From: Flavivirga sp. 57AJ16
GTDB lineage: Bacteria; Bacteroidota; Bacteroidia; Flavobacteriales; Flavobacteriaceae
Direction: 5' to 3'
NCBI RefSeq assembly: GCF_028736925.1
Contig: NZ_JAQZAT010000008.1
Location: forward strand, 62,001-126,000
DNA: 64,000 nucleotides
The translations under genes were made by a program, and so were the position numbers. The notes beneath the pieces were generated by a model, which ran no database searches, was not told the DNA's origin, and saw nothing but the letters and a program-made list of their open reading frames with translations. Position 1 is the stretch's first letter, and each line of letters begins with the position of its first letter. Positions 1 through 59,356 of the stretch are shown here, piece after piece.

Positions 1-441
1 GTCAAAGAATCCTTTGATGTCTAAATCGATTACCCAGTCTGTTTTCCAGCAGTTCTCTCTAACTTGTTTGAGCGCTTGATGCGCACTTTTGTTAGGTCTG
101 TACCCAAAGGAATTAGGACTGAATATCTTCTCTAAACGAGGTTCTAAAAACATTTTAACCACCATTTGCCCAACCCTGTCGCTAATGGTGGGGATGCCCA
201 ATTTACGGATGCTTCCATCTGTCTTTGAGATTTCTACTTCTTTAACAGCAGGAGGAAAATAGCTTCCTGATGCCATACGATTCCAAAGTTTGTAAAGATG
301 TTGACTGCGATTGGCATCGAATGCTTCCATGCTAATCTGGTCAACGCCCGCACTCCCTTTGTTGGCTCTTACCTTTTTATAAGCCTGCCAAACCATTTGC
401 CGGCTTATAGGTATTGATTTTGTTTCATTCCATAAATTCAT
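1..441 (-). CDS. ltrA: Group II intron reverse transcriptase/maturase, N-terminal part (runs off window)
   Basis: I read this frame directly from the sequence: an ATG at 441-439 opens 147 codons with no stop before the window edge. The product carries the N-terminal reverse-transcriptase blocks of group II intron-encoded proteins: RANKGSAGVD near residue 30, then LYKLWNRMASGSYFPP, KLGIPTISDRVGQMVVKMFLEP, a fingers-type FGYRPNKSAHQAL and WVIDLDIKGFFD at the cut edge. The last Asp is the first catalytic Asp of RT domain 3. Such proteins splice their host intron and copy it into new DNA sites. The remaining RT, X/maturase and any endonuclease domains lie outside the window. The class (C, D or other) cannot be set from this fragment. 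The 575 bases upstream look like the intron RNA. Confidence 0.9.
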   Translation of the reverse strand, partial: MNLWNETKSIPISRQMVWQAYKKVRANKGSAGVDQISMEAFDANRSQHLYKLWNRMASGSYFPPAVKEVEISKTDGSIRKLGIPTISDRVGQMVVKMFLEPRLEKIFSPNSFGYRPNKSAHQALKQVRENCWKTDWVIDLDIKGFFD

Positions 442-1016
442 CCTCTAAAAAAAATTGAGTTGATACATAAAATGCAACTGTATTATCTAATCCCTTCGCT
501 CCATTTCCATTACAGAAACTTCATCACTACTACAGATTAGTCCGCCTTTGCCTATAACGTTGGTATTCCACCTCTCGATTGTTTCGATTGTGTGTTTCTC
601 TTTGCATTTATAGGCAATTTCCCGAGTTCCATAAATAAGCCCAAATAAAGGTCATGCCATCTGAATGACGCCAGCCATACGGAAAGTAAACAGGTAACCT
701 CCGTATTTAGTATTGTAATAATACTACTTTTCACTCCGTATCATACTTCGCAGCTTTTGACTGGGTGTTCGCAACTTCTCGACACCTCTTCAATGGTTCA
801 CTTGCGTTCATCTCCTTTATTAATACCTTCTAATCTCGTGGATTGGATTCTCCTAAACGCTCAATACCATAACTCTTAATTACAGCACCTTTAGGTGGTT
901 TAAAGCCATTGCCTGTACAACGACTTTGGTGGGTCGTCTTTCTAAAAAAAAGATTCCACCATCTTATTTACAGCATGCAATAGGTAATTGTTGCCGCCTA
1001 TTGCTTCTCGGCACAC
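442..1016 (-). ncRNA. Group II intron RNA, 5' domains upstream of the ORF
   Basis: Minus strand, from the presumed 5' splice site to the maturase start. The stretch has no credible ORF but is rich in short helices and begins GTGTGCC, matching the GUGYG start of group II introns. It contains GAACGCAAG and GGTGTCGAGA-like blocks that resemble domain I segments of bacterial introns. The 5' boundary was set by comparison: bases 1017-1020 onward match the array repeat at about 4954-4966, and similarity stops where GTGTG begins. The 3' end (domains V and VI) lies outside the window. I recognise the class of element from ORF position and 5' sequence only; no full folding was done. Confidence 0.65.
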
Positions 1017-1130
1017 TATGAGTAGTTGCGTGGGTTAGTACTTAATTTTGCAAGTACACACGGAACTGAAAATCCGCGAGGATTTTCAGAAGTGGGTGAA
1101 AACTAGCAATTACTTATAGTCATTGTGGCT
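1017..1130. repeat. Array palindrome E1 (attC-like), interrupted by the group II intron
   Basis: Outer arms AGTAGTTGC (1021-1029) and GCAATTACT (1106-1114) pair imperfectly. The centre is a perfect 10-bp hairpin, CTGAAAATCC (1066-1075) with its complement (1080-1089), closing a GCGA loop. The sequence is closely related to E3 (4946-5061), sharing the CAAGTACACAC block. The distal end of the left arm, which should read on to a CAAC core, is replaced by the intron at about 1016. Confidence 0.7.
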
Positions 1131-1269
1131 GTTGCACAACTATAAAACACTCTAATTCCTGCTTAATTTTTTTTGCTTTCAAAACAGCAATACGCTGATT
1201 TTAAATTAGTTATAGTTATTCGTTGCTGTCAAAATTTATTACTTTATTTAAAATTATGAGTTGTGCAAC
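1131..1269. repeat. Gene-free 139-bp mini-cassette, copy 1
   Basis: Bounded by perfect 11-bp inverted ends GTTGCACAACT (1131-1141) and AGTTGTGCAAC (1259-1269); an imperfect match extends to about 1125 and 1275. About 93 percent identical and equal in length to the copy at 4219-4357. No ORF. The interior can fold: ACAGCAA (1184-1190) can pair with TTGCTGT (1223-1229), or CAGC (1185-1188) with GCTG (1194-1197). It may be a cassette carrying a structured RNA, or a small non-autonomous element that prefers array sites. Confidence 0.75.
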
Positions 1270-1399
1270 GGCTACCGGTGTTGTAAAACGTTTTTATACA
1301 TTCTATAATTATCACCAACCAAATTTACTTTTAATTAAACGTAATATATCAAATCATAAAGCTAGCTATAATCGTTAAGATTAAAGCAGTCAAAAAAAA

Positions 1400-2086
1400 C
1401 TAAATTGGAATTGCAATACCTAAACCAGTTCTTAAACCAGACCAATTAGTTTTTACTTTGTCTCCATTATTATTTTCTAAATAAAAGTCATTATTCTCTT
1501 TAAATTTTAATGTTCCACCGAAGGTCATATCAAAACCTAAAGAAGCCTTAATAATAAAAAATGACATAGGATATTCATAAATCAATCTGCCTCCAACCCC
1601 TAAGTTAATAGATTGAAACTTTATGTTCTCATTAGTGATATTATCTGAAATTTGAGTGTAATTTTCTAATCTCAAATTTGACAACATACTAAATCCTCTA
1701 AGTCCCAAGCTAAAGTTATTATTAGTCTTGGATAGTTTAATTTGATATTCGCCTCCAAATGTATAGGCATTCAAAGGCTGAGTTATTCTTATAACTCCAG
1801 AATAATCTGAATACGATATTTTTCCTCCTGTTGAATTATAACTAAAAAATAAGGACGTATTAATTTGATTTAGTTTATAACCTAAAGTAAAACCAATATT
1901 TGACGGGAAATTATCATTAACTTCGATGGGTACTTCAGGGATATCTTCAATAAATTCTTGCTGAAAAGACTTTAAAGAAGCATGTGAAAATGTATTGTAA
2001 TTAAGTTCAATAATAATATTACCATTTTGACTATAAATCATGAAAGAAAAACAGATAAATAAAAGTAAGGCTATTTGCTTTTTCAT
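1400..2086 (-). CDS. Outer-membrane beta-barrel family protein (array cassette, second gene)
   Basis: A 228-residue protein with a signal peptide (MKKQIALLLFICFSFMIYSQ) followed by alternating hydrophobic/aromatic strands typical of small outer-membrane beta-barrels. It ends in a barrel-like strand (GLRTGLGIAIPI). There is no catalytic motif and I do not recognise a named family. It lies 4 bp downstream of the lipoprotein gene at 2091-4004, so the two are surely co-transcribed within one cassette-like unit (1280-4094). A role at the outer membrane, perhaps anchoring or exporting with the lipoprotein, is inference from signal and pairing. Confidence 0.7.
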   Translation of the reverse strand: MKKQIALLLFICFSFMIYSQNGNIIIELNYNTFSHASLKSFQQEFIEDIPEVPIEVNDNFPSNIGFTLGYKLNQINTSLFFSYNSTGGKISYSDYSGVIRITQPLNAYTFGGEYQIKLSKTNNNFSLGLRGFSMLSNLRLENYTQISDNITNENIKFQSINLGVGGRLIYEYPMSFFIIKASLGFDMTFGGTLKFKENNDFYLENNNGDKVKTNWSGLRTGLGIAIPI

Positions 2087-2090
2087 ATTG

Positions 2091-4004
2091 TTATTCGTTT
2101 ATATAATGATCTAAATAAAACCCCAAGCCATATGCATAAATTAGTTTATCGCTTTGTAACCAATAACCTCTAGGGATTTCATTTGGACTCCATATAGAAA
2201 CAACATTTTTTACTTCAATTCTTTTGAAGTTTGTGCTTGTAAGATCATAAACGTATGCATAAGAGGGTTGTGTATTACTTAGACCAAATTCACTTCTTAC
2301 AAATAACAACTTATTTGTTCCGTTGTCATAATCCATAATGTTAATTCTTGTAAAATCACTTAAAGTTGATTTTGTTCTGGTCATCAAATCAAATATAATT
2401 GGATTTCCATCATACGAATTGTAAACACATTTGTTTTGATTTACGATGAATTCAACCAAATTGACATTGTCGTTGGTATTAGTTTTAACTATTTCATTTA
2501 TAACTTTACTATTTATTTCGAAAAAAGCATTGTTGATGTAGAAATATCTACCATCATCAGACATTTTAAAATAACCTGATTTACTGGTATTATAAAATAA
2601 TTCTTTAGTTGTTGAATCATAAAAGCTTATCTGATTATCTTGCTCAATAACTATGGTATTATTTCGATATTTGATACTTCCAGTTTGTACTCCAAAGTCT
2701 GATAGTTTCCATTGATTTATAATTGAAAGACTATTACCCTCGACTAGATATGAAATATCTACTACATCTATTATTAAGTTACCTGTAGAAGTAATTGTTA
2801 AATCTCTAGCATAATTAACACCTTTTGTAGTAATGAATTTCGTTTCAACGAGTGCTAAAGTTTCGGAATCTAGTTTTTCAATAGTAATATAATCTGGAGA
2901 AGTTCTACTTGAACCCGTTCTTAACACATAAATAAGATTATCAAATTGATTATAAAGAAACTCTCCATAACTACTGCTAGGATCATAATCAAATTGTTTG
3001 TTATAGGATTCAGGTATAAATAACGACCCCTTATATATGTTTTGGCCTCCAGATTCTTCATATAAAGTTAAGTTAGTACCAACATCATTATAATCAGGAA
3101 ATATAATAAGTTTATCCACTATTATTTCTCCCCCTAAAGAGCTTACTTTGTGTGTGTTACTCATGGAATCGGTAAACAAATAGTAATCAAAATTGCTATA
3201 CAAAGTATGTTGAGGAATAATTAATTTGTATTGATTTTCATTTAAGATTAGCTTTTCAATTTCAAATTTCTTTATAAATATATTTACTTTATTACTAACT
3301 GTATTTCCTCTAGTATTTTTAAGCTGGATTTGATATTCTATGTCATGATCCATTTGTTCTTCTCCTGCAGGAATGAATGTATGCACATTTGTGTCATTAT
3401 AATTCAATTTTAACATTTCTTGTTCAGTGATTTCAAAGTAGTTTGGAGAACCATTATTAGTAATTACCAGCGTAGCACTATCAAAATTTAATTTAGTAAT
3501 TGGTTCCCATGACAGATAAATAGAACCATCGATAATTTCAGCACTTTTCATAACAATAGTCTCTGGAGGAGATTTATCAACTATAAAATTATATTCTTCA
3601 GTTTTTATATAAGCCTCAACACCACTTACGTCAGCTAAACTGCCAGATCCTGAAGAAAAAATATATTCAACTTTTAAAATATGATTTCCATCTTCTAATG
3701 ATTCTGTATTAATATTAAAATCACCCGAATTGATTGAGCTAGTTTTGATTTCAACGTTATCAATGTAAATTTTTATTTCATAAAGGAGATGCTTGTTATT
3801 TCCATTATAATTAAAAATGATTTTTGTAGTGACATAAAAAGTTTGATTATCACTTAAGTCATTTAAACTAATAGATGCAGTTGGAGGGTTTTGGCTAACT
3901 TCTATGAATGAATCTTCAGAAAATTCATAAGCGCAATTTGATAAAATAATTAATGTGGTAAAAATTAATAAAGACTTATTAAATTTCTGGAGTGGTGATT
4001 TCAT
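2091..4004 (-). CDS. Secreted lipoprotein with beta-propeller-like C-terminal half (array cassette, first gene)
   Basis: A 637-residue protein whose N-terminus is a lipoprotein signal ending LSNC (Cys24). Residues about 35-245 look like Ig/fibronectin-type beta modules (PPTASISLNDLSDNQTF, a PPETIVM linker, IYLSWEPI). Residues about 300-610 contain repeated strand patterns (LYNQFDNLIYVL, YDSTTKELFYN, VYDLTSTNFKRIEV) like a degenerate WD/YVTN-type propeller. No enzyme motif was seen. It is the first gene of a two-gene unit with the beta-barrel at 1400-2086. It is unusually long for a cassette gene. Function unknown; cell-surface binding is the simplest guess. Confidence 0.7.
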   Translation of the reverse strand: MKSPLQKFNKSLLIFTTLIILSNCAYEFSEDSFIEVSQNPPTASISLNDLSDNQTFYVTTKIIFNYNGNNKHLLYEIKIYIDNVEIKTSSINSGDFNINTESLEDGNHILKVEYIFSSGSGSLADVSGVEAYIKTEEYNFIVDKSPPETIVMKSAEIIDGSIYLSWEPITKLNFDSATLVITNNGSPNYFEITEQEMLKLNYNDTNVHTFIPAGEEQMDHDIEYQIQLKNTRGNTVSNKVNIFIKKFEIEKLILNENQYKLIIPQHTLYSNFDYYLFTDSMSNTHKVSSLGGEIIVDKLIIFPDYNDVGTNLTLYEESGGQNIYKGSLFIPESYNKQFDYDPSSSYGEFLYNQFDNLIYVLRTGSSRTSPDYITIEKLDSETLALVETKFITTKGVNYARDLTITSTGNLIIDVVDISYLVEGNSLSIINQWKLSDFGVQTGSIKYRNNTIVIEQDNQISFYDSTTKELFYNTSKSGYFKMSDDGRYFYINNAFFEINSKVINEIVKTNTNDNVNLVEFIVNQNKCVYNSYDGNPIIFDLMTRTKSTLSDFTRINIMDYDNGTNKLLFVRSEFGLSNTQPSYAYVYDLTSTNFKRIEVKNVVSIWSPNEIPRGYWLQSDKLIYAYGLGFYLDHYINE

Positions 4005-4094
4005 GTTTTTTTTAATAAGTTTAAAATCATTTGGATAGTTATTAAAATTAATTAATATCTATCTTAATTTATTTTTTTGTAAATGTTTTACAAC

Positions 4095-4218
4095 GGTTTC
4101 GTATAAGAATAGTGCGGTTTTGTGTGCGAGGATTTTCCACAGGAAAATCAGACGTAACAAAATTGCACTAACCTTTGATTAAGCGCCTAATTTAGCATTA
4201 TTTTTATACAATGTGGCT
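4095..4218. repeat. Array palindrome E2 (attC-like)
   Basis: Arms 4101-4115 (GTATAAGAATAGTGC) and 4195-4209 match in reverse complement at 13 of 15 positions. Central hairpin GATTTTCC (4131-4138) and GGAAAATC (4142-4149) with a 3-base loop, preceded by the shared motif GCGAGGATTTTC. It follows the CAAC core of the lipoprotein/barrel cassette (4091-4094) and precedes mini-cassette copy 2. Length 124 bp. Confidence 0.75.
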
Positions 4219-4357
4219 GTTGCACAACTATAAAACACTCTAATTCCTGCTTAATTATTTTTGCCTTCAAAACAACAATACGTTGATTTTAAATGAGTTA
4301 TGATTTTTCGTTGTTATCAAAATTTATTACTTTATTTAAAATTATGAGTTGTGCAAC
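4219..4357. repeat. Gene-free 139-bp mini-cassette, copy 2
   Basis: Same 11-bp inverted ends as copy 1 (4219-4229 and 4347-4357) and the same length, with about ten substitutions. Several are compensatory: CAGC...GCTG in copy 1 is CAAC (4273-4276)...GTTG (4282-4285) here, and the longer helix ACAACAA (4272-4278) with TTGTTAT (4311-4317) changes on both sides at one position. It is followed by the same GGCTACC spacer, then the GTTGGCA end of the next cassette at 4368. Confidence 0.75.
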
Positions 4358-4381
4358 GGCTACCATTGTTGGCAGTAGTTT

Positions 4382-4933
4382 TTATTTTATCTGGTTTATG
4401 CTATAATCCATTTGAGTTAAATCCACCACAACCTCATATTCTGCGTTCCATCTTTTTTCAGGGTATTTCTCCGAGTTTAAGCAATAAATGCTCCACGAAT
4501 AAACACCATCTCCCAACTTATTATTAAGGCTAATTGTTGAACCCTCATTTTCTCTTTTTTCTTTACGCAATAATTTTTTGATGTCTTTTTTATCTTTTAT
4601 TATGTCATAGGATTTCTGAATTTGGGCAAGTTCGAGCTCAACATTTTTTTCATACCTTTTTTTGGCTCCAATTCCATAAATACTATCCATTTTTCTCCAA
4701 AGCCTTAAATGAACAGATTTAACACTGTCAACAAGTTCATGGCTAACCATACAGCCAGCAACTCCTTTGACCTCAAGATTGTATTCTTTTGCAGTAAATT
4801 CCATTGCTTTAATTCTCAAATAACTCATTAATCCGTAATAAAGAATTTGACCTTGATTGTCAGAGTCGGTTGATTCCTGCGAAAATCCGCCAAATGAAAT
4901 CAAAAGAATTAATATGTAGATTATCTTTTTCAA
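4382..4933 (-). CDS. Secreted hypothetical protein (array cassette)
   Basis: I place the start at TTG 4933-4931, giving a clean signal peptide (LKKIIYILILLISFGGFSQ) and a mature protein of about 165 residues. A longer GTG-initiated reading from 4978 would begin inside the neighbouring palindrome and cross the cassette end (TGCCAAC, 4939-4945), which is unlikely. The mature part is rich in Lys/Glu with a helical middle (KRYEKNVELELAQIQKSY) and a two-Cys pattern (GCMVSHE, YCLNSE). No known family recognised. It is alone in its unit (4368-4945). The initial TTG is unusual, though the gene lacks an in-frame ATG near the signal sequence. Confidence 0.65.
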   Translation of the reverse strand: MKKIIYILILLISFGGFSQESTDSDNQGQILYYGLMSYLRIKAMEFTAKEYNLEVKGVAGCMVSHELVDSVKSVHLRLWRKMDSIYGIGAKKRYEKNVELELAQIQKSYDIIKDKKDIKKLLRKEKRENEGSTISLNNKLGDGVYSWSIYCLNSEKYPEKRWNAEYEVVVDLTQMDYSINQIK

Positions 4934-4945
4934 ATTATTGCCAAC

Positions 4946-5061
4946 GTTTGGGCTAAGAGTAGTTGCGTGGGTTAGCACTTAACTTTGCAAGTACACACCA
5001 AACTGAAAATCCGTGAGGATTTTCAGAAGTAGGTGAGAACAAGCAATTACTTATAGCCATT
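4946..5061. repeat. Array palindrome E3 (attC-like), best preserved
   Basis: Outer arms GGCTAAGAGTAGTTGC (4951-4966) and 5043-5058 agree at 13 of 16 positions in reverse complement. Central perfect 10-bp stem CTGAAAATCC (5003-5012) / 5017-5026 with a GTGA loop; the sister element E1 has GCGA, so the loop keeps a GNRA pattern. Flanked by CAAC (4942-4945) and GTTG (5062-5065). Length 116 bp, within the size range of long attC sites such as those of Vibrio. Confidence 0.8.
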
Positions 5062-5072
5062 GTTGTATGCCA

Positions 5073-6593
5073 TTATTTTTGTTTTCTCCTTTTCAATCTA
5101 TGTCTCCTCATCATCCTTTCCATAAATGACATTCCTTTATTATACTCATTCATCCATTCATTTATATATTCTCTAAATTCGTCAGTAGTCATTTTATTAT
5201 GACGACCATCATAAGTAGAAGAAGTCAAATTATATGTTGACCTCTTATTAAAAATAACAAATGAACCTCTAAAAAATCTAGACACGTGTCTTGCAGTTTC
5301 AGGAATTTCATATCCCATTTCATTGTAATCGTAGCGATGCTCAACTAAATCGTATTTATCATAACTTCCTGGATAAATTTCGGACACACTTTCTCTATCG
5401 TGATTTTTTTCGTATGGTATTTTCTCGTCTTCATTTTTGTAAACTCCTGAAGATTCCAATTCATCAAGCTCCAATCTGAAATAATTCCACTCTGGGTCAG
5501 CTCCAAAAGATTCAAAGACTAACCTTTTTGGTTTAACAATATCTGTAAGACCACCAAAATCTAATTCTATGCAATCTCTTTCATATGATTTTTTTGTTCC
5601 TTCTAAATCTAAACCACCACCATCTGGGAAAAATAAGTGATTTAAGTTATCATATGAGCCAATGACATTAAGCACCTTAATTATATCCTCATTTTCTTCC
5701 CAGATTACTCTTTTAGGAAATGAGGTTGGAAAAAGTTTAGTTTGAATTTCAAACCACTGCTCTAGATTTTGTTCGTGAAAATTCTCGTTTAATAATTTCC
5801 AATCTTCGAGCTCATTTATGAATTGCTCCATAGTAGGCCTTTTTTCCGGGTCATTATCTGTTGAAGCAGTTAGTAACTTGTCAATTGGACTTGTATAGTG
5901 AGAATTGTAAAATTGTCTTAATTCGATGATTGAGTCAGTTGAATATTGTCCATCAAATCCTTTCTGATTTTCAGTTAAGATAATCCAAAGTGTTTTAGCG
6001 AGAGAATATACATCTGCTTTTAAGCTATCAGCCGAAGATGACTCTCTTTTCATTTCAGGTGCCATTGTCCATTTAGCACCTATGATTTCATTTTTATGTG
6101 AGATATCCTTTTTGTTTGGAAAGTCAACTAATCCAAAATCAGCTATACAAAATCTTGAATTAAACAAAAGAATGTTGGGAAGCTTGATATCTCGATGTGA
6201 TATTTTTCTATCGTGTAGATTTTTTAGTGTATTAGCAATTTCAATGACTGCATCAACTTTATTTTCAATTGATTTGCCATTTAGCTCCCTTTCAGCGTTA
6301 CTAGCAACTGGCATAACAAAATAAGGAATGTCAGTTTTTGAAAGTTTTTTTGGTAAGTTTTTATCAATTATTGGAATTATTCCTTCAATATCAGAGTTTG
6401 CTTCTATTACGCTTATTTCATCCAAAAAGCGATTATACGATTTTTGCTTAAGAGTTTTAATGAGTTTCATAGCTCCAAATTCACCTTTTGAATTTACACA
6501 TTTCCATACTTCACCATTCCCACCTCCACCAAGGTAGGAAACCAAAGTCCAATCATTAAATTTTTGATTTTTTTTAAATAGTTTTTTACTCAT
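5073..6593 (-). CDS. Hanks-type Ser/Thr protein kinase with unknown C-terminal region (array cassette)
   Basis: A 506-residue protein. The kinase domain covers residues about 15-270: glycine loop LGGGGNGEVW (21-30), ATP-binding Lys43 in AMKLIK, catalytic HRDIKLPN (133-140, Asp135), metal-binding DFGL (152-155), APE (178-180) and DVYSLAK. All key residues are present, so it should be active. Residues about 275-506 have no family I recognise; they are acidic, then strongly basic at the end (MRRHRLKRRKQK). There is no membrane segment, so the protein is cytosolic. It is the only gene of the unit 5062-6614, and its TAA stop lies inside the unit's terminal repeat. Possible roles include stress or phage-responsive signalling, but nothing here proves that. 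Confidence 0.85.
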   Translation of the reverse strand: MSKKLFKKNQKFNDWTLVSYLGGGGNGEVWKCVNSKGEFGAMKLIKTLKQKSYNRFLDEISVIEANSDIEGIIPIIDKNLPKKLSKTDIPYFVMPVASNAERELNGKSIENKVDAVIEIANTLKNLHDRKISHRDIKLPNILLFNSRFCIADFGLVDFPNKKDISHKNEIIGAKWTMAPEMKRESSSADSLKADVYSLAKTLWIILTENQKGFDGQYSTDSIIELRQFYNSHYTSPIDKLLTASTDNDPEKRPTMEQFINELEDWKLLNENFHEQNLEQWFEIQTKLFPTSFPKRVIWEENEDIIKVLNVIGSYDNLNHLFFPDGGGLDLEGTKKSYERDCIELDFGGLTDIVKPKRLVFESFGADPEWNYFRLELDELESSGVYKNEDEKIPYEKNHDRESVSEIYPGSYDKYDLVEHRYDYNEMGYEIPETARHVSRFFRGSFVIFNKRSTYNLTSSTYDGRHNKMTTDEFREYINEWMNEYNKGMSFMERMMRRHRLKRRKQK

Positions 6594-6614
6594 TTGGTTT
6601 TAATGGCATACAAC

Positions 6615-6735
6615 GGTCTTGTGTAAGGAACGTTGCGTGTTTGAGTGCGAGGATTTTCCGAAGGAAAATCAGAAGCTAGCAAACAAAGCAACGACCAAAC
6701 GATTAAACTAAAATAAGCAATGTTTTTTACACGGT
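6615..6735. repeat. Array palindrome E4 (attC-like)
   Basis: Arms GTGTAAGGAACGTTGC (6621-6636) and 6717-6732 agree at 13 of 16 positions in reverse complement. Central hairpin GATTTTCC (6652-6659) and GGAAAATC (6663-6670) with a GAA loop, again led by GCGAGGATTTTC. It lies between CAAC (6611-6614) of the kinase unit and GTTA (6736-6739) of the next. Length 121 bp. Confidence 0.78.
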
Positions 6736-6736
6736 G

Positions 6737-7282
6737 TTACCCAACGTTTTTATTTCTGTTATACAATTCGGTTTCTTTTCTTTCAAATGCTGGAATTGCT
6801 ATAATACTTTCCCAATTTTTATCTATTTCGGGAAATTTATTTAGCAATTCGGTCATAAAAATCCGCCAACCTTCGAATTCCTCTGTCGCAAAAGATATTT
6901 TATTATCAGATTCAATTTTTAAACAAATATCATCTGTTGTAATTCGGTCAACTTTAAATCCAGTCAGTTTTTCAATCTCTGACCATTTGAATTGAGTAAT
7001 TTCTTCATCATAATTGATCTGAAATCCGTTTTTAGTCAGTTCAATTTTTTCAATTTTTTTTCTTTTTTTGGTTTTCTTTTTTCTTAAAATAAAAATTAAG
7101 CAAGATATAAGCAGGACAATAAATATAAAAGCTATTCCAAAAATCACAAGAGTTATCCAAACTGTAACATAATTTAAATCAGGAGCAAAGGTTTTTAAAA
7201 TTGACTCAGCGGAGAAGAAAAAAACTAATGATAATAAAATAAATAATACAAAATGGATTAGAATTATTTTTGATTTCTTCAT
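6737..7282 (-). CDS. Two-helix membrane protein, hypothetical (array cassette)
   Basis: A 181-residue protein with two transmembrane helices (residues about 7-28 and 38-66) followed by a basic stop-transfer stretch (RKKKTKKRKK). A cytosolic domain of about 110 residues has a beta-rich start (KNGFQINYDEEITQFKWSEI), which looks like a pleckstrin/YcxB-like fold, then a helix. I cannot name the family. It is alone in the unit 6736-7303. Its last codons read through the unit's terminal repeat (GTTGGGTAA gives Val-Gly-stop), so the cassette end supplies the stop codon. Confidence 0.7.
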   Translation of the reverse strand: MKKSKIILIHFVLFILLSLVFFFSAESILKTFAPDLNYVTVWITLVIFGIAFIFIVLLISCLIFILRKKKTKKRKKIEKIELTKNGFQINYDEEITQFKWSEIEKLTGFKVDRITTDDICLKIESDNKISFATEEFEGWRIFMTELLNKFPEIDKNWESIIAIPAFERKETELYNRNKNVG

Positions 7283-7309
7283 TCGGTTTAAATGTTGGGT
7301 AACAATTGT

Positions 7310-7331
7310 ATATGCGTACCGGTACGCATAT
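7310..7331. repeat. 22-bp perfect palindrome at the outer end of the array
   Basis: ATATGCGTACC followed directly by its exact reverse complement. It comes 6 bp after the last GTAAC core (7303), where an array palindrome would be expected to start. A second short hairpin, CCGCT/AGCGG with a 5-base loop, follows at 7348-7362. Together they may be a divergent or truncated array site, or a protein-binding operator. The full left and right arms seen in E2-E4 are missing. Confidence 0.6.
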
Positions 7332-7362
7332 TTCTTATTTGTCGATACCGCTAATCTAGCGG

Positions 7363-7574
7363 ATTTTTAATTGTTTTGAAAGTGTTTTTTGCTCCAGTAT
7401 GTAATTTCTGTCCTACTACTAGAACCAAGTACCTAAGAGCACTTGTGTTTGTCTTAAGTCTACCCGCAATTCCAAAAGACGTGGACACACCGTAGCTGCC
7501 GACGAAGCAGGGATTGGGTATGAAGCGAGCGAAATACTTCTATGGCCCTGCCAAGGATGGCTCATTTCAATAAA
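7363..7574. other. Non-coding, GC-richer stretch of unknown role
   Basis: No ORF of note on either strand. Bases about 7430-7560 are clearly GC-richer than the surroundings (CCGTAGCTGCCGACGAAGC, GGTATGAAGCGAGCG), which is unusual in this AT-rich genome. It may be a remnant of a mobile element or an RNA gene; I could not match it to tmRNA, RNase P or a tRNA by eye. Confidence 0.35.
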
Positions 7575-58078: not shown

Positions 58079-59356
58079 CTAATACCCATATTTATCTTTC
58101 CAGCGCTGTTTTAAGAACTCTTTGTGAGCATTCTCACGAGCATTGTTTCCTGGCTCGTAAAATTTTGTGTTTTTAATTTCATCTGGTAGGAACTCCTGAT
58201 TGGCAAAGTTGAGATCGTAATTATGAGCATATTTATAATTATCTCCATAACCCAATTCTTTCATTAATTTGGTAGGTGCATTCCTTATTTCCAAAGGGAC
58301 CGACAAGTCACCTGTTTCTTTGACCAATTGCTGTGCTTTACCAATAGCTTTATAGGCTGCATTGCTTTTAGGGGAGCATGCTAAATAAGTAGCGCACTGG
58401 CTTAATATAATTCTAGATTCTGGATAGCCGATTGTAGAAACTGCTTGAAATGTATTGTTAGCTATGACTAAGGCAGTTGGATTGGCATTACCTATATCTT
58501 CACTAGCTAAAATGAGTAACCGTCGTGCAATAAACTTTACGTCTTCACCGCCTTCCACCATACGGGCTAGCCAATATACTGCGGCATTTGGATCGCTGCC
58601 CCGTATTGATTTTATAAATGCCGAAATAATATCGTAATGCTGTTCACCAGTTTTATCATAATGAACGGTATTACTTTGAATCCTTTCCAAAACGGATTTA
58701 TCGGTAATGGTTATTTTATTGGACTCATAAGAATTTACAATAAGCTCAAAAATATTAAGTAGCTTTCTGGCATCACCGCCAGAAAGCCTTATAAGGGCAT
58801 TTGTTTCTTCTAGCTTGATCGTTTTTTTGGAAATATGTTCATCTTTTTCAATGGCACGTTTTAAAAGCGTCTCTAAATCGTTTTTATTGAATGCATTTAA
58901 AATATAAATCTGACAGCGGGATAAAAGTGCCGAAATAACTTCAAAACTAGGGTTTTCGGTAGTCGCACCAATTAACGTAATCCAACCTTTTTCTACTGCT
59001 TGTAACAAAGAGTCTTGTTGAGACTTACTAAATCTATGAATTTCATCAATGAACAAAATAGGGTTTTTTGTAGTAAATAACCCACCACTTTGTTTAGCTT
59101 TCTCAATGACGTCCCGAATATCTTTAACGCCTGAATTTATGGCGCTAAGTGTATAAAAGGGTCTACCGGATTCTGAAGCAATGATATTAGCAAGTGTTGT
59201 TTTTCCCGTACCTGGCGGTCCCCAGAAAATCATTGAAGGAATCAAGCCTTGTTTTATATGCTGTGTTAAGCTACCCTGTTTACCAACCAAGTGATTCTGA
59301 CTCACATAGTCAGTCAGTGTTTTTGGTCTTAAACGTTCAGCTAAAGGTTCATTCAT
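58079..59356 (-). CDS. rarA: Replication-associated recombination protein A (RarA/MgsA)
   Basis: A 425-residue AAA+ ATPase of the clamp-loader group acting at stalled forks. [21 protein letters not shown] start, Walker [16 protein letters not shown], Walker [11 protein letters not shown], sensor 1 [13 protein letters not shown], sensor 2 [12 protein letters not shown], then the tetramerisation and C-terminal [32 protein letters not shown] and GYKYPH-like NYKYAHNYD. Complete. Confidence 0.96.

Follow-up and report, generated by a model that had tools for sequence, protein, structure and literature searches.

A candidate integron-like cassette system with its own tyrosine recombinase in Flavobacteriaceae

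The cassette array and its platform

The left end of a 64,000-nt window of the genome of Flavivirga sp. 57AJ16 (assembly GCF_028736925.1, NZ_JAQZAT010000008.1:62,001-126,000) holds an array of gene units separated by palindromic repeats. Judged from their sequence, these repeats are very probably the recombination sites of an integron-like cassette capture system with its own recombinase. Four units lie head to tail on the minus strand, running left from position 7303, and each is closed by one of the palindromes E1-E4 that a first-pass annotation of this DNA had reported. Inspection of the sequence and matches to R1, a covariance model of 42 rows, confirm all four where that annotation had placed them (E 2.3e-11 to 7.5e-19 in a scan of the window; E3 and E4 are among the rows, so their matches are by construction). 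The site ends YAAC/GTTR that it had described are seen at E3 and E4, each of which is flanked by ...YAAC and GTTR. The array extends left beyond the window, with sites at 58712 and 59902 of contig 51.

Each unit opens with GTTRNNNNNMAT and terminates in an inverted copy of its own opening, followed by the hairpin site. The inverted ends are specific to each unit and unlike those of its neighbours. In array order, the features are:

7351..7380, minus strand: relic of an integrase gene, its last codons FKTIKNPLD plus stop; 29/30 nt match the intact gene on contig 14
7351..7358, minus strand: uncertain promoter-like box TAGATTAG, ending with the stop codon; two departures from the Bacteroidota -7 consensus TAHHTTTG
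7301..7331, minus strand: attI-like site, a 22-bp palindrome (7310-7331), then ACAATT and GTT (7301-7303)
6615..7303, minus strand: cassette 1, 689 bp, GTTACCCAAC ... GTTGGGTAAC plus site E4; ends complementary at 10/10 nt
6615..6735, minus strand: E4, attC-like site of 121 nt (R1 match; cassette chaining)
4946..6614, minus strand: cassette 2, 1669 bp, GTTGTATGCCATT ... AATGGCATACAAC plus site E3; ends complementary at 10/10 nt
4946..5061, minus strand: E3, attC-like site of 116 nt (R1 match; cassette chaining)
4095..4945, minus strand: cassette 3, 851 bp, GTTGGCAATAATT ... AACTACTGCCAAC plus repeat E2b and site E2; ends complementary at 9/10 nt
4095..4218, minus strand: E2, attC-like site (R1 match)
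1017..4094, minus strand: cassette 4, GTTGTAAAACATT ... AACGTTTTACAAC (1280-1292) plus repeat E1b and the intron-cut site E1
1017..1130, minus strand: E1, attC-like site with an interrupted right stem arm (R1 match; sequence)

Read in array order, the end pairs are GTTGTATGCC ... GGCATACAAC in cassette 2, GTTGGCA ... TGCCAAC in cassette 3 and GTTGTAAAAC ... GTTTTACAAC in cassette 4.

Contig 14 of this genome holds an intact platform, in which the gene of a 375-aa tyrosine recombinase (L026:4890-6017) is followed by an attI and a cassette. We located this recombinase through a signal below the cut-off in a search of the genome with an IntI model. The gene is followed on its 3' side by CTAGATTAGCGGT, a 22-bp palindrome, ACAATT and GTT. 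The cassette starts at this GTT, contains two genes and has ends complementary at 10/10 nt; a palindrome follows, and a group II intron begins close to the contig end. Positions 7301-7380 of the window have the same layout, which indicates that the window array heads at a platform reduced to the tail of its integrase gene. The first-pass annotation had found no integrase in the window. This holds for an intact gene, but the attI-like palindrome and gene tail at 7301-7380 had gone unseen and an intact member of the family is present on contig 14. The tyrosine recombinase that it had expected to be linked to such arrays is found in this platform and at the head of arrays in relatives.

Cassette ends, exchange and spread

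Relatives of the integrase were examined in public genomes on the best 80 of 105 contigs, many of which end soon after the integrase. By title, most of these records are Flavobacteriales, with some Cytophagales and a single bin labelled Saccharospirillaceae, and the closest integrases (72-78%) belong to Arenibacter, Maribacter, Pricia and other Flavobacteriaceae. Arenibacter hampyeongensis (L030, L073) carries two of these integrases, which fall on separate tree branches and each have an array of their own. Of the 69 loci that are long enough, 59 have an attI-like palindrome plus GTT 3' of the integrase gene, as judged by sequence.

The rule of complementary unit ends was examined in 78 of 81 integrase loci, three that are cut short being excluded. 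Nine had too little downstream sequence and ten had no GTT after the best palindrome; of the remaining 59, the 39 with more than 1500 bp were used. The reverse complement of the first 10 nt of the first unit recurs within 4.5 kb with at most one mismatch in 34 of these 39 loci, whereas swapped starts give a mean of 7.9 and a maximum of 12 over 30 rounds. Perfect reverse complements occur in 22/39 loci, against a mean of 1.0 with swapped starts. Chaining from 25 hand-picked starts (L070 was omitted, as were L046 and L089, which lacked a good partner) yielded 114 cassettes, 104 of which were kept by site length. Their sites fall into two sizes, 114-121 nt (n=70) and 179-186 nt (n=34), and the median cassette is 800 bp. 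By construction, 103 of the 104 pair at 6/7 or more positions at their own ends; with the start of the next unit, only 6/104 do so.

In the genome of Flavivirga sp. 57AJ16 itself, where 150 of 4269 candidates were scored, R1 has 37 matches, 23 of them less than 5 kb from another match and 12 solitary. A partner unit start lies within about 1.5 kb upstream at 9 of 30 sites (at most one mismatch in 10; chance ~1.4), namely at 5/21 clustered and 4/9 isolated sites (chance ~0.7 per set). Among the remaining 21, the units are longer, the ends are decayed, or introns or nested repeats intervene; some could not be assigned. The first-pass annotation had taken random occurrence of the palindromes away from such units as a sign against its reading. 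Within the window R1 has no match at E<=1e-3 besides E1-E4, but in the genome 12 of the 37 matches are solitary.

By sequence comparison, units change at GTT between related platforms, a check that the first-pass annotation had suggested. In all nine hand-picked pairs of related platforms, three of which come from a single trio, identity is 78-97% over the 300 bp that lead up to GTT and 27-38% of ungapped positions over the 300 bp past it. Arenibacter arenosicollis carries one cassette in two copies, one at attI and one in fourth position, which match at 100% over 777 bp with GTT at both ends. The outcome that the same annotation had named as refuting exchange, always the same genes with the same spacers, is not what related platforms show, since their contents switch at GTT.

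The spot occupied by the window array is variable and is flanked by genes conserved in all 11 congeners searched. The spot is empty (<100 bp) in G149 and G156; R1 matches are present in G000 (six) and G151 (three), and none in the other 10 of 12 genomes. The insert in G000 measures 14.7 kb and exceeds the array in width, so that the comparison demonstrates variability of the spot and not of single cassettes. The insertion hotspot corresponds to the gap before the mannose-1-phosphate guanylyltransferase region, which ranges from <100 bp to 14.7 kb in 12 congeners (L157:1430-16141, L146-L156).

The covariance-model scan of relatives that the first-pass annotation had called for detected sites in the majority of the family's genera sampled. 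R1 sites (E<=1e-4) occur in 132 of 149 family genomes including our own (131/148 genera) and in 81 of 296 genomes of a phylum sample, with at most 23 candidates scored per family genome and 11 per phylum-sample genome, all from Bacteroidota. An integrase at E<=1e-40 is present in 102/149 family genomes. Among the listed site clusters, those at 173-229 kb on contig 1 of G113 and at 2733-2792 kb on contig 1 of G014 have an integrase ~13 kb and ~2 kb upstream, respectively. By hand count, 16 of the 21 contigs with both an integrase match and a listed site have a site within 30 kb downstream, on the strand of the integrase gene. Four small genomes from another family of the phylum (f24; G185, G215, G226, G268) have one or two weak R1 matches each, which may be related sites or false positives.

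Site fold, recombinase and cargo

Both classical attC cores are found together in 0/104 sites, GTTRRRY alone in seven and RYYYAAC alone in five, which agrees with the earlier statement that the core is not RYYYAAC/GTTRRRY. Because they misfit the usual integron pattern, the sites have probably been overlooked by standard integron searches. In the alignment of 42 sites, 82.5% of stem cells are paired, as opposed to 22-45% in slid registers, and 12 of the 16 stem pairs vary on both sides. Such two-sided changes account for 86 cells versus 21.4 in shuffles, a number reached by none of 500 shuffles. Unaided, RNAalifold recovers 9/16 stem pairs, seven of them compensated.

For the count of mismatches, 4/104 sites were dropped as duplicates and 6 of the remaining 100 lack the anchor, an A opposite C at one stem position that is present in 94/100 distinct sites. 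A second A:C position occurs in 76 of those 94. The bottom strand is the more stable fold in 95 of 99 arm pairs (control 52/99), because the conserved A:C mismatches become T:G there. The circle junction, in turn, folds more stably than the integrated site in 95/99. The site is hence foldable, with an L stem and with a strand polarity that comes from mismatches. For IntI sites, passages of PMC2727003 attribute strand choice mainly to extrahelical bases.

The integrase combines a Xer-like core with ~105 extra N-terminal residues, and the catalytic residues R, K, HxxR, H and Y are kept in the alignment (L092 and L107, with short frames, were left out). The insert typical of IntI is absent; residues 202-246 of IntI4 remain unmatched, and the gap is present in 12/12 such integrases and filled in both IntI. 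The integrase scores below the IntI models (TIGR02249, 205.7 versus a cut-off of 265 bits; PRK15417, 137 versus 435) and passes the NCBI model NF040815, "site-specific tyrosine recombinase/integron integrase" (241 versus 220 bits). No protein of the Flavivirga genome exceeds the IntI cut-off. A tree places the two IntI apart from all 39 remaining non-Xer rows with support 82, a weak placement with long branches, two IntI and a root on two Xer. A lineage separate from IntI is likely from these comparisons. The attC-type architecture of the first-pass annotation stands as regards cassettes, GTT boundary and hairpin; it does not stand as a merely divergent attC system, because the recombinase lacks the IntI insert.

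Between the integrase end and GTT, TAnnTT[TA]G occurs in 58 of 59 loci (5.1 in shuffles, 3.0 within the gene), and in 51 of these 58 it lies 46-57 nt upstream of GTT. Passages of PMC6847099 give the Bacteroidota promoter consensus as TAnnTTTG and the refined -7 element as TAHHTTTG. It is possible that a predicted promoter in this interval might drive the first cassettes.

The genes and nested elements of the window array are:

6737..7282, minus strand: gene of cassette 1, 181 aa, no Pfam family above cut-off
5073..6593, minus strand: gene of cassette 2, 506 aa, protein kinase domain with similarity to the kinase domains of PADLOC mad6 and PD-T4-6
4382..4936, minus strand: gene of cassette 3, ~184 aa, no Pfam family
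2091..4004, minus strand: gene of cassette 4, 637 aa, weak Big_7 match below cut-off
1400..2086, minus strand: second gene of cassette 4, 228 aa, no Pfam family above cut-off
4214..4368, minus strand: repeat E2b with inverted ends, 155 bp, between the end of cassette 3 and the E2 stem
1126..1280, minus strand: repeat E1b, as E2b, 155 bp, before E1
1..1016, minus strand: group II intron, 5' portion, inserted into E1 at its right stem arm (boundary 1016/1017; Rfam RF01999 at 825-942)

In the set of 104 cassettes, the longest open reading frame (ORF) runs in the cassette direction in 82 and in the opposite direction in two, and the start codon lies a median of 30 nt downstream of GTT. Neither a transposase family nor an immunity family was found among the seven window proteins and ten sampled cassette proteins scanned. 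Some cassettes carry defence-like cargo, namely an OLD/GajA-like ATPase (L061:10736-12607), a C5 cytosine methylase (L034:10174-11220) and the kinase of cassette 2 in the window.

The pair E1b/E2b, absent from the first-pass annotation, belongs to a 155-bp element with eight copies in the genome, six of which abut an R1 match. We hold it to be a small element nested in sites. A mini-cassette was considered and rejected; its ends do pair, but the preceding site is collapsed in the seven copies examined by eye.

The group II intron is the only element returned by an Rfam scan of the window. Its reverse transcriptase was recognised by eye, in a reading frame that continues in L017. A 10-nt motif resembling the 5' end of the intron occurs at the same spot of the stem arm, in both orientations, on six contigs of the same genome and a Persicobacter plasmid (window 1-1016, L026:7455-7681, L028, L018, L019, L027, L113), Rfam having confirmed the window copy only. 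Group II introns that start in the stem arm of sites are also described for the group IIC-attC introns in passages of PMC7923331. Typical introns of that group are inserted opposite to the cassette direction, however, whereas the window intron follows it.

A model of cassette capture and its rivals

We propose that the 375-aa tyrosine recombinase, transcribed towards its own attI, would insert circular cassettes by splitting at GTT and would excise them again. Each cassette carries a hairpin site and one or two genes that reach near its ends, and on circularisation its complementary ends would be joined and extend the stem; complementary inverted ends are the residue expected from circular cassettes inserted at GTT. 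Since the A:C mismatches, which read G:T on the complementary strand, give the bottom strand the more stable fold, we consider it fairly probable that the folded single bottom strand would be the substrate for recombination, and the genes would then end up reading away from attI. The recombinase of contig 14 is, we infer, the enzyme that acts on these sites. The window array has no enzyme of its own, because its integrase gene is lost except for the tail, and the contig 14 recombinase could act on it in trans. In its working the system would thus be integron-like, and as tested here it lies outside the IntI/attC family.

Several observations weigh against this model or its parts. The 104 cassettes were chosen for complementary ends, and chaining is biased towards consensus letters; 20 of them have no ORF of 60 aa. 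In the Flavivirga genome, 21/30 sites have no partner unit start within 1.5 kb. Among the family genomes, 17/149 have no site and 47/149 no integrase at the cut-off, and five of the 21 contigs with both (G001, G070, G085, G123, G141) have no nearby downstream site. The attI palindrome lies entirely upstream of GTT, so that the binding sites in attI cannot be named. As for the putative promoter, TAnnTT[TA]G ends with the stop codon in 37 of 59 loci, and 37 have TTAG; exact TAnnTTTG is present in only 21/59 loci (2.3 when shuffled) and the refined TAHHTTTG in only 15/59 (1.7).

An ordinary IntI integron, or a cluster of attC sites lacking integron-integrases (CALIN), with divergent attC sites and a lost intI would share the architecture, the GTT boundary and the L-stem hairpin, and group II introns sit in these sites as they do in attC arrays. 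Reviews also count Bacteroidota among the integron-bearing phyla. In passages of PMC9024848, IntegronFinder 2.0 is reported to find one complete integron in Bacteroidetes proper (Salinibacter ruber M1), and an earlier survey only site-less integrases. We regard this explanation as very unlikely: the two classical cores never occur together in the 104 sites, mismatches occupy the places expected of extrahelical bases, and the linked integrase lacks the insert and stays, at 205.7, short of the IntI cut-off of 265 that nothing in the genome passes. Dispersed palindromic repeats lying merely between genes, such as repetitive extragenic palindromic or enterobacterial repetitive intergenic consensus (REP/ERIC)-like elements, terminators or mRNA stabilisers, would account for scattered sites, 12/37 of them solitary, and could end transcripts. 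They would not account for unit ends that pair with their own other end far above those of other units, for two fixed size classes or for content that switches at GTT behind an integrase, and this alternative appears extremely improbable. A transposon family with palindromic ends and passenger genes, each unit being mobilised by a transposase, would fit the inverted and sometimes solitary units and the IS110 transposase in a Chryseobacterium array, but has next to no probability with head-to-tail units in one orientation (82/84 of those with an ORF), a tyrosine recombinase at the array head and no transposase family among the 17 proteins scanned.

The proposed cassette capture system resembles Class 1 and Vibrio-type integrons in its integrase, attI, GTT crossover and favoured bottom strand, in cassettes that hold one or few genes and in palindromic sites that have R and L boxes. 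It differs from them in the missing IntI insert, in other R-box letters and in A:C mismatches that replace extrahelical bases. Integrase transcription towards attI is a further difference from these integrons. Treponema integrons likewise transcribe the integrase in the cassette direction, but are described as intI systems in the passages of PMC3607928 considered here.

The recombinase-associated acquired interbacterial defence (rAID) arrays of gut Bacteroidales, the closest relatives described so far, share a related tyrosine recombinase (38.5% identical, also with an N-terminal extension), co-directional short genes and cassette-specific inverted ends. On a Bacteroides ovatus plasmid, the units of a rAID array (L112:5986-13065) have ends that are complementary in 10/10 cases within units and in 9/90 between units. 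In contrast to the GTT starts, sites of 114-186 nt and mixed cargo described here, rAID units start with CATTA, have ~50-nt sites (by eye) and carry immunity genes. Passages of PMC12247911 define rAID by the recombinase, co-oriented genes and intergenic motifs, and the word "integron" is absent from the main text of that paper. A tyrosine recombinase upstream of at least two co-directional genes is found on contig 14 and in relatives, the window having the relic only; the hosts of the window and of the nearest integrases are Flavobacteriaceae and not Bacteroidales. From these likenesses, rAID appears to belong to the same lineage of integron-like systems.

On Acinetobacter plasmids, TnpF is 55% identical to the recombinase over residues 146-375. 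Acinetobacter and related plasmids (L109:6043-8090; L110:2967-4988) carry TnpF, an attI-like palindrome, GTTATGTGCCATT, tet(X3) and then AACGGCTACTAAC. The two motifs fit the majority pattern of cassette ends and pair at only 4/7 variable positions, so that tet(X3) as a putative first cassette behind TnpF is only a lead. Among the titles and abstract openings listed, which cover part of the literature on integrons, Bacteroidota, rAID, TnpF/tetX, introns and the promoter, no described match to this system was found.

Taken together, we see an even chance that Bacteroidota own a second integron lineage that works via folded DNA and is separate from IntI, being present in most genera of the family, with clusters of 40-60 kb in some genomes, with rAID as a branch and with tet(X3) having circulated as a cassette beside TnpF. 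Some of the sampled cargo is defence-like, and tet(X3) adjoins an attI-like site of this kind. If the model is correct, a large marine group would carry chromosomal cassette arrays without classical cores, and integron biology would gain a second enzyme and site code. Strand choice by mismatches and self-complementary R-box barcodes would then become directly testable.

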